From Patescibacteria group bacterium (GTDB lineage: Bacteria; Patescibacteriota; Dojkabacteria; JAKAPS01), in contig JANWIC010000007.1 in NCBI GenBank assembly GCA_025450075.1, positions 1-39,288 of the forward strand: a stretch of 39,288 nucleotides of DNA, read 5' to 3'. Both the position numbers and the translations under genes were made by a program. Position 1 is the first letter of the stretch; the number at the start of each line of letters is the position of its first letter. Positions 5,801 through 7,920 of this stretch are shown here, piece after piece. Under the pieces are notes generated by a model. It was not told the DNA's origin, searched no databases, and was given only the letters and a program-made list of their open reading frames with translations.

Positions 5801-6481
5801 TTAAAGTTCCTTAAAATAATCATTTAGTTCTTCAATTAATTGATTTACTGAATTGATGACAAAATAGCCATTATGGAAGCTGTATACTGCAGGATCTTCT
5901 TGAATTGCTGCTCGTATACTAAATGGCTTTTTGAGAGTTTTTGCATCAAGTGCGTGTTGTATTTCTCCAAATGACGACATAAGTCCTGCACCAAATGCTT
6001 TAATAGTATCTCCTTCATTGATAAGACCAAATTCAATGGTAAACCACCAGAGGTTAGCAATTTTATGTATATCTTCTTTCTTTATATTTGCCATAGTAGA
6101 TGCAAATAGATTGGTTAACCTCAACGTATCATTGTGGAGTAAGAAGGGCAGATGTCCCAAAATATCATGGAACATGTCCGGCTCAGGTGTGAAATCAAGT
6201 TCTTCCATGCTTCGCAAGTAGGTAGTGATTGGAAATACATCTTTTCCAATCAACGTTATCCATTGAGAAGCTGATAAATATCGAATTATTGTATGTTCAA
6301 TACGCCAGCCAGTGGAAGGTGTAATTTTTTTGTTAAGTTCACGTACTGTCGGTATAGAATCAGGAGTAAATTCGATTTTTTTTAGTCCATCCAGATATTC
6401 TTTACAGGCAAACTTTTCAATATTTGGTAATTGCTTCTTGAATAAAGTTTTCCAGATTGAGTTTTGTTGTTGTGTATTCAT
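5801..6481 (-). CDS. biopterin-dependent aromatic amino acid hydroxylase (phenylalanine 4-hydroxylase-like)
   Basis: TPEPDMFHDILGHLPFL (HxxxxH iron ligands), WWFTIEFGL (Glu ligand), AFGAGLMSSFGEIQHAL. Confidence 0.93.
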   Translation of the reverse strand: MNTQQQNSIWKTLFKKQLPNIEKFACKEYLDGLKKIEFTPDSIPTVRELNKKITPSTGWRIEHTIIRYLSASQWITLIGKDVFPITTYLRSMEELDFTPEPDMFHDILGHLPFLLHNDTLRLTNLFASTMANIKKEDIHKIANLWWFTIEFGLINEGDTIKAFGAGLMSSFGEIQHALDAKTLKKPFSIRAAIQEDPAVYSFHNGYFVINSVNQLIEELNDYFKEL

Positions 6482-6492
6482 TTTAGGATAAA

Positions 6493-6518
6493 AATATAAA
6501 AAGCTCCATAATGGAGCT
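6493..6518 (-). terminator. intrinsic terminator/attenuator upstream of the hydroxylase
   Basis: Minus strand AGCTCCA-TTA-TGGAGCT followed by TTTTTATATTTTT, between the leader ORF and the hydroxylase ATG. Confidence 0.85.
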
Positions 6519-6546
6519 AAAAGATGGATAAAAAAGTATTAGCTCC
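6513..6546 (-). promoter_or_regulatory. putative antiterminator stem
   Basis: Minus strand GGAGCTAA (6546-6539, end of leader ORF with stop) is exactly complementary to TTAGCTCC (6520-6513, 5' arm of terminator). Confidence 0.7.
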
Positions 6547-6610
6547 GATAACGGGTATCATAATAGAGATAATATCGAATTGTTTTTTGATGATCTTTAA
6601 AGATATCCAT
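6539..6610 (-). CDS. Tyr-rich leader peptide MDIFKDHQKTIRYYLYYDTRYRS
   Basis: 23-codon ORF with TAA stop; GGAGG SD 7 nt upstream of ATG; 5 Tyr in residues 13-21; directly upstream of terminator and Tyr-forming enzyme. Below ORF-track size cutoff. Confidence 0.85.
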   Translation of the reverse strand: MDIFKDHQKTIRYYLYYDTRYRS

Positions 6611-6633
6611 AAAAAAACCTCCGAGAAGGAGGT
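6611..6633 (-). promoter_or_regulatory. SD-containing terminator-like hairpin in front of the leader ORF
   Basis: Minus strand ACCTCC-TTCTC-GGAGGT followed by a T run; GGAGG is the leader SD, 5' arm ACCTCCTT equals the 16S anti-SD sequence. Confidence 0.7.
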
Positions 6634-6845
6634 AAAATGTGTAAAAATAACTATTACAAACTAACCCCCATAAGAAGCAAGGTAATAATAGCTATATGTA
6701 ACAGTAGTTTTGTATGTCATAATGTTGAGATTATAACAAATTTCAAGAAATTCCTCAATAATTTGGTTTCCATTATTGTATTCCTTATAATCTATATAAT
6801 TCCTAAGCAGCTTCAACTGCAATTTAATTCACATATACACTCTGA

Positions 6846-7266: not shown

Positions 7267-7920
7267 ATGGCTAATAAAAAGAGAAAAAACAAAACACCCA
7301 TCATATAAAATACTTTATGGCTTATACAGCTTAACTGGAAGTATGTCTCCTTCATTATTATTTCTAGAGTGATAGGAAATATTAACTCTTATGCTGGTAG
7401 ATTCATCAATTCATTTTTTATCGGATTGATGCTTGATAAGATTACTGTATATATTAAATCGCCTCATCAAAATACTTCCTTTATCCTTTATCCATTAATA
7501 ATATTTGGTCTCTACTATTTCTTGACTTCAGGAGCAAGTATTATGCGTAATCTAGGTGAGAACTTATCTGGTTTTCAATTCTCCTATGTATTACCCGAAA
7601 TCTTACTCCATGAAAAACTCAATACACTGCATATTGCAAGGTTTTTCTATAGAAATGACCCGATCCTAATCCTTGATGAACCGACTGCATCTATAGATGC
7701 AGTAGCAGAAGCAAATATCTTTAATAGGATATATTCCTTTATTGAGTATAAAACAGTGATAATCATCTCACACAGATTTTCGACTGTAAGAAATGCTGAC
7801 ATGATTATAGTTCTAGACAATGGCAAGATTGTAGAAGAAGGATCACATACAGAACTGCTTGCTAAAGATGGCGTATATGCTAATGCATATAAATTACAGG
7901 CCAAGGGATATCAAGATTAA
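7267..7920 (+). pseudogene. ABC exporter remnant (N-terminal TM segment fused to C-terminal ATPase tail)
   Basis: NINSYAGRFINSFFIGLMLDKI... then directly FFYRNDPILILDEPTASIDAVAEANIF...ISHRFSTVRNADMIIVLDNGKIVEEG; no Walker A or LSGGQ; upstream in-frame continuation is broken by TAA at 7306-7308. Confidence 0.85.

Follow-up and report, generated by a model that had tools for sequence, protein, structure and literature searches.

Descriptions of leader peptide systems came from Proteobacteria and Actinobacteria, and later from Firmicutes (PMC2965389). In the enterobacterial trp, pheA and his attenuators (trpL, pheL and hisL), a short leader open reading frame (ORF) with a run of codons for the end product is combined with alternative antiterminator and terminator structures, and attenuation is relieved when the charged tRNA is in short supply. 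To our knowledge, no dedicated leader-peptide attenuator is known to sense tyrosine. Here we describe a locus with this general organization in a 39,288 nucleotide (nt) stretch of a dojkabacterial member of Patescibacteria (contig JANWIC010000007.1; hereafter, the window), where the gene for an aromatic amino acid hydroxylase is preceded by two Tyr-rich leader ORFs and two intrinsic terminators, each located between a leader ORF and the hydroxylase. Given the sequence elements, their complementarity, the predicted dependence of folding on ribosome position and the recurrence of the arrangement before hydroxylase genes across phyla, these most probably are two serial ribosome-mediated transcription attenuators that sense charged tyrosyl-tRNA and control a tyrosine-making phenylalanine hydroxylase; we infer the transcription start, stalling, termination and enzyme activity.

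The original prediction, made from the sequence alone, proposed a single attenuator composed of the second leader, a terminator and an exact complementarity between the end of the leader and the region of the terminator 5' arm. All these elements, including the five Tyr codons and the GGAGG Shine-Dalgarno (SD) sequence 7 nt before the leader ATG, are present (Table 1), but the upstream leader and terminator 1 had been missed, and the locus contains two units in series. The same GGAGG (6622-6618) doubles as the 3' arm of terminator 1, which had also escaped notice. The simpler three-segment design ascribed to the attenuator holds for unit 2, where no protector hairpin was seen, but not for unit 1, for which a classical 1:2 protector is predicted. 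The arm sequences of the two units are wholly different, with the same three-way complementarity in each, and the distance from the final Tyr codon of the cluster to the stop codon is six codons in each, with the arm beginning 12 or 13 nt after this Tyr codon.

The effect of ribosome position was modelled by folding the RNA downstream of the ribosome. The assumed footprint placed the leading edge 12-13 nt downstream of the first nucleotide of the codon in the aminoacyl (A) site. In equilibrium folding, terminator 1 forms with a probability of 0.01-0.14 when the A site is placed at Tyr9-13, as against 0.98 when the ribosome has reached the stop codon. A ribosome still at the start also gives 0.98, the arm being protected by the 1:2 hairpin of the Tyr codons. 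For terminator 2, the corresponding values are 0.03-0.05 at Tyr13/14 and 0.93 or more at the stop codon. When folding was restricted to the nascent stage, with RNA transcribed only up to the terminator 5' arm, predicted capture of this arm was 0.99 at the Tyr stall versus 0.00 at the stop codon in unit 1, and 0.86 at Tyr13-17 (Tyr17 included) versus 0.00 at the stop codon in unit 2, which supports the stall-dependent antitermination originally envisaged for the latter. In these models, the antiterminator is mutually exclusive with the terminator, being freed by a stall at the Tyr codons and masked by a ribosome at the stop codon.

Table 1. Elements of the hydroxylase locus, in window coordinates.
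Element	Position	Strand	Remarks
Putative sigma-70-type promoter, TTGAGG-17-TATAAT, TG before -10	6730..6758	minus	10/12 consensus matches
Leader peptide ORF 1, MTYKTTVTYSYYYLASYGG, then stop; Tyr at 3, 9, 11, 12, 13, 17	6661..6720	minus	
Predicted protector (1:2) hairpin, unit 1: AUAGCUAUUAU (6695-6685, Tyr codons) with GUAAUAGUUAU (6657-6647)	6647..6695	minus	Minimum free energy structures
Putative antiterminator arm 1, GGGGGT, final two codons of leader 1; pairs with ACCTCC (terminator 1)	6664..6669	minus	
Terminator 1, ACCTCC-TTCTC-GGAGGT-TTTTTT	6611..6633 (stem 6633-6617)	minus	
Leader peptide ORF 2, MDIFKDHQKTIRYYLYYDTRYRS, then stop; Tyr at 13, 14, 16, 17, 21	6539..6610	minus	
Putative antiterminator arm 2, GGAGCTAA, end of leader 2, stop codon included	6539..6546	minus	
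TTAGCTCC, complement of arm 2, overlaps 5' arm of terminator 2	6513..6520	minus	
Terminator 2, AGCTCCATTATGGAGCT (6518-6502), then TTTTTATATTTTT	6489..6518	minus	
Hydroxylase gene, 226 aa, ATG at 6481	5801..6481	minus	Pfam PF00351

In the proposed mechanism, RNA polymerase would start at the ATG of leader 1 or immediately upstream, and a ribosome would load at the 5' end. With ample Tyr-tRNA, the ribosome would reach the stop codon of leader 1 and cover GGGGGT, terminator 1 would form, and RNA polymerase would leave in the T tract, just before the ATG of leader 2; without a loaded ribosome, the 1:2 hairpin would sequester GGGGGT, and the terminator would form as well. A stall at Tyr9-13 would cover segment 1, allowing GGGGGT to pair with ACCTCC and transcription to continue. 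This pairing would also release the GGAGG; given that the SD of leader 2 lies inside terminator 1, the two units would be coupled, and a second ribosome, on leader 2, would re-test the Tyr supply. There, a stall at Tyr13-17 would leave GGAGCTAA free to capture TTAGCTCC, resulting in readthrough, and a ribosome at the stop codon would mask GGAGCTAA, so that terminator 2 forms. The hydroxylase would be transcribed only when both units report Tyr shortage. An untranslated unit 2 would tend toward readthrough, but because it would be exposed only after readthrough of unit 1, the latter would guard against false opening.

The alternative that survives best is that only one attenuator, either unit 2 or unit 1, is functional, with the other terminator ending the upstream transcript or representing a decayed copy. 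Unit 1 starts only 125 nt downstream of the stop codon of the preceding gene, for which terminator 1 could serve, although a promoter-like site lies in between; the ends of the two leaders are identical in 24 of 45 bases, as would fit the divergence of a spare copy, but the shared Tyr codons may account for this identity. Both units appear intact, with stems, T tracts, complementary arms, Tyr runs and matched Tyr-to-stop spacing, and a tandem pair is also present in another patescibacterial locus (L178, see below), all of which makes a single working unit unlikely.

The search for related leaders covered 82 homologous hydroxylase loci, with a genome-based widening within the phylum of the window. 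No close relative of the window hydroxylase was detected among 97 relatives, 86 genomes of the class, viral contigs or phages; the nearest homologues, at 46% identity at best, come from Chloroflexota. The comparative test suggested with the original prediction gave a positive result: Tyr-run leaders, terminators and freed arms occur in other patescibacteria, including a class other than that of the window, in Chloroflexota and in Flavobacteriales, but they are not universal, and many homologues lack a leader. Six chloroflexotal loci (L007, L008, L009, L010, L012 and L013) encode Tyr-run leaders (e.g., MVKHTLYVYAYYYAETTPAALPCVLLKN; complete peptides are given up to the stop codon), and a strong terminator lies some 100 nt upstream of the gene. 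Patescibacterial leaders include MKLSWLSSATYYYPPLGGG (L003), one starting with MSVSLFTSTYYYYSTRLYCKGL (L180), the tandem MTTFMTHSQSYYYFLS and MIILAHMYYYYCFP of L178, and a weak candidate, MMFNTYYASSGR (L002); those of Flavobacteriales are MKRQNTYYYYHLILNKN (L074) and MNNNCTYYYYYTDPNWN (L081), and the leaders preceding terminators also include the partial sequences MSVSLFTSTYYYY... and ...YAYYYAETTPAALPC.... At least four Tyr within eight residues were found upstream of 9 of the 82 hydroxylase genes compared with none among the 639 remaining genes of these loci, although 5 of these 9 loci are close relatives, and the nominal P of 2e-9 is accordingly too small. The Tyr runs of the leaders, including those of the GC-richer Chloroflexota, use TAT and TAC interchangeably. 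No Tyr leader was found at L005, L177, L179, three plasmid phhA genes (L183-L185) or the large Anaerolineales group (L031-L086), and in L014, a terminator is present without a Tyr run in a plausible leader.

In the window and in L007, L008, L010, L012 and L013, the start codon of the first leader is preceded, at 8-10 nt, by a TANAAT box, which would place the transcription start at or beside this codon. In the window, the ATG of leader 1 is 9 nt past the -10 box, the expected transcription start is about 0-3 nt before the ATG, and leader 1 is thus probably leaderless; the promoter itself is a consensus match only, and the promoter count in the leader region does not exceed that in shuffles. 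In this predicted start at or beside the start codon, leader 1 would differ from trpL.

In comparative folding, the difference in capture of the terminator 5' arm between the Tyr stall and the stop codon is positive in all 14 modelled leaders. For L178, L074 and L081, no gating was predicted by full-length equilibrium folding, but it was present when nascent RNA was folded up to the 5' arm. The arm pairs differ wholly between lineages (GGGGGT/ACCTCC, GGAGCTAA/TTAGCTCC, TAAGGAAG/CTTCCTTA and GAACTGAG/CTCGGTTC, with TTTGCCCTG and CAAAG...CAGGC in Chloroflexota), a complete divergence that serves in place of covariation. In the protein tree, the window sequence is placed near the chloroflexotal leader group, whereas L002/L003 and Flavobacteriales are apart, and the Tyr-leader trait requires about 5 changes, with uncertain placement of long branches. 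Given that the leader-bearing lineages are separated in the tree, repeated origin or horizontal spread of Tyr leaders appears likely.

In the archaeon GW2011_AR15 (L011), a Tyr-run ORF, MHKPAAQSKYSYYYYC, lies some 150 nt upstream of the hydroxylase start codon (ATG at 2992), shortly downstream of an archaeal-type TATA box. The predicted accessibility of the hydroxylase SD (GGAGG) is 0.27-0.36 with an earlier stall and 0.08 with the ribosome past the Tyr run (shuffle P=0.03), so translational Tyr control in this archaeon is possible, as a weak, single case. On the Piscirickettsia salmonis plasmid pPSEM90-3 (L182), an ORF at 1259-1360, MHQLSSFSSALFHALPVVIAAAYYYSHRPYYCY, is located ahead of phhA; the Tyr region of this ORF contains GCCCTTAT, a complement of ATAAGGGC close to where phhA begins. 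No terminator was seen, and translational control through this leader was not supported, as the modelled accessibility of the ribosome-binding site barely changes. In L179 (genome G452) and L180 (G450), the hydroxylase frames contain many in-frame TGA codons, consistent with UGA-recoded Patescibacteria; the leaders there need this code, in which UGA is read as an amino acid.

The archaeal folding, which points to SD sequestration rather than termination, also bears on a second alternative, namely that the window leader acts through translational control or through sensing of a protein or small molecule by the RNA (a riboswitch or T-box), with Tyr codons incidental to AU-rich RNA. Such codons are indeed common in AU-rich sequence, and Tyr-dense upstream ORFs occur elsewhere in this genome (see below). 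However, terminators with T tracts are present, the complementarity is located just past a Tyr-stalled ribosome, and no Rfam family, T-box included, matches the leader, a tRNA-Ser being the only match in the window. Neither does AU-richness explain the TAT/TAC interchange in GC-richer Chloroflexota, and we consider this alternative very unlikely, more so than a single working unit.

Chance was assessed by shuffling and by a genome scan. When the 364-nt leader region was dinucleotide-shuffled 20,000 times, two terminators appeared once and two attenuator-like units never. At local base composition, the Tyr content is P=0.0015 for leader 1 (6 Tyr in 19 residues, or 6 of 18 non-initiator codons), P=0.02 for leader 2 (5 Tyr in 23 residues) and P=1.3e-4 for both leaders pooled (11 of 40 non-initiator codons against 7.5% expected). 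The duplexes between the arms and the terminator 5' arms score -13.4 in unit 1 (null, -7.0; P=0.005) and -13.2 in unit 2 (null, -4.1; P below 0.001). Both strands of 752 kb of the 1.11 Mb genome were scanned for terminators preceded by an ORF that ends in a complement of the 5' arm; of the 70 terminators found, only the two in the window qualified, whereas 270 shuffles of the scanned DNA yielded a mean of 0.19 hits per pass, none with at least five Tyr. Tyr content alone is less telling in this AT-rich genome, where ORFs with four or more Tyr in eight residues lie upstream of 9 of 669 other genes; such ORFs are not rare, and the case therefore rests on the combination of features. That two terminators of upstream transcription and random AT-rich ORFs produced the arrangement by chance has a negligible probability, for even though short Tyr-containing ORFs are frequent in such DNA, the shuffles, the scan and the recurrence upstream of homologous genes in other phyla all argue otherwise.

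The hydroxylase matches PF00351 at 1.2e-44, and its top matches among solved structures are phenylalanine-4-hydroxylases (PDB 2v28 at 2.2e-39, with alignment). The iron-ligand motifs HxxxxH and E are retained (FHDILGH and WWFTIEFGL), and the best NCBIfam match is PRK11913 (phenylalanine 4-monooxygenase), with a score below the curated cut-off. By these matches, the gene appears to encode a biopterin-dependent aromatic amino acid hydroxylase, with phenylalanine as the inferred substrate. Because no prephenate dehydrogenase (TyrA) domain was detected in the 93.5% complete genome, the hydroxylase would be the sole tyrosine route detected there. For bacterial phenylalanine hydroxylase, genetic evidence from Dyella japonica and Echinicola supports a function in biosynthesis (GapMind, PMC7311316).

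Several observations weigh against serial attenuation. Most of the 82 homologous loci are without such a leader, and with homologues at most 46% identical, there is no alignable leader orthologue for classical covariation. The combined shuffle P of 1.6e-8 over 12 leaders (2e-6 without the two of the window) overstates independence, L007, L009, L010 and L012 being closely related; the shuffles covered the region between the Tyr codons and the terminator, several terminators having been picked by eye beforehand, and the individual P is 0.14-0.28 for L178 unit 2, L002, L008 and L013. Depending on the scoring of the stem, the equilibrium probability of terminator 2 is 0.6-0.8 at Tyr16/17, so that the outcome there hinges on co-transcriptional capture. 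No SD is found near the hydroxylase ATG. As for the cofactor source, neither GTP cyclohydrolase I nor pterin carbinolamine dehydratase was detected in the same genome; given that neither these enzymes nor TyrA were detected, tyrosine is likely to be obtained by hydroxylation or uptake, with pterin coming from outside.

Elsewhere in the window, a 48-aa ORF next to the hydroxylase (5741-5595, minus strand) resembles the start of DUF2000 (E=0.0018, under the curated cut-off) and then stops, and the following bases resemble a decayed remainder, a possible pseudogene. The protein encoded at 9393-8443 (minus strand) matches HMUDK_hel, the helical domain of 5-hmdU DNA kinase, at 1.7e-95; this family is associated with phage DNA modification. 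The ORF at 7369-7920 (plus strand) is probably a truncated ABC gene, its C-terminal half resembling the end of an ABC transporter ATPase (LDEPTASIDAVAEANIF) without the Walker A part.

In several phyla, members of one gene family are preceded by a Tyr-specific design of this kind, also in organisms with genomes of about 1 Mb and few known regulators, which suggests that hydroxylases with such leaders act biosynthetically. The serial layout would be a compact two-check design, the sensitivity of which is open to modelling, and would imply that transcription is coupled to translation in Patescibacteria and that leaderless initiation occurs there. Tentatively, and with less confidence than for the locus itself, we suggest a cross-phylum class of Tyr-specific leader-peptide switches for biosynthetic phenylalanine hydroxylases, with multiple origins, a patescibacterial tandem of two checkpoints, the ribosome-binding site of leader 2 being provided by the 3' arm of terminator 1, and an archaeal translational variant (L011).

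The original prediction knew of no Tyr-specific attenuator, and neither a Tyr-specific nor a hydroxylase-linked one was found in the literature searched, most subscription journals being outside its reach; for Patescibacteria, archaea and tandem attenuators, mgtCBR was the only relevant tandem case found. Firmicutes T-box leaders of tyrosine genes bind uncharged tRNA directly, without a leader peptide; as proposed for the locus described here, they sense tyrosyl-tRNA charging and control transcription, but the window contains no T-box match. The two ORFs of the Salmonella mgtCBR leader sense different signals, ATP and proline, whereas here both units would read Tyr, with the 3' arm of terminator 1 serving as the SD of leader 2. 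The mgtCBR leader itself contains tandem attenuators, two short ORFs controlling transcription elongation (PMC3641672). The AroR leader (Phe-Tyr-Phe) before aroF of Corynebacterium glutamicum, the one leader with a Tyr codon known to us, is reported to respond when Phe is limiting, but not to the availability of Tyr (PMC11802643); it shares an aromatic leader with a Tyr codon and ribosome stalling with the system proposed here, but has a DAHP synthase target and one unit. Compared with the trp, pheA and his attenuators, to which unit 1 is also similar in its predicted 1:2 protector, the locus differs in the Tyr codon, the hydroxylase gene, the two serial units, the probably leaderless leader 1 and, in unit 2, the apparent lack of a protector and the use of the stop-codon region as an arm. 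Thus, the working principle appears to be that of trp, in a Tyr-specific, hydroxylase-linked form not found in the literature searched.
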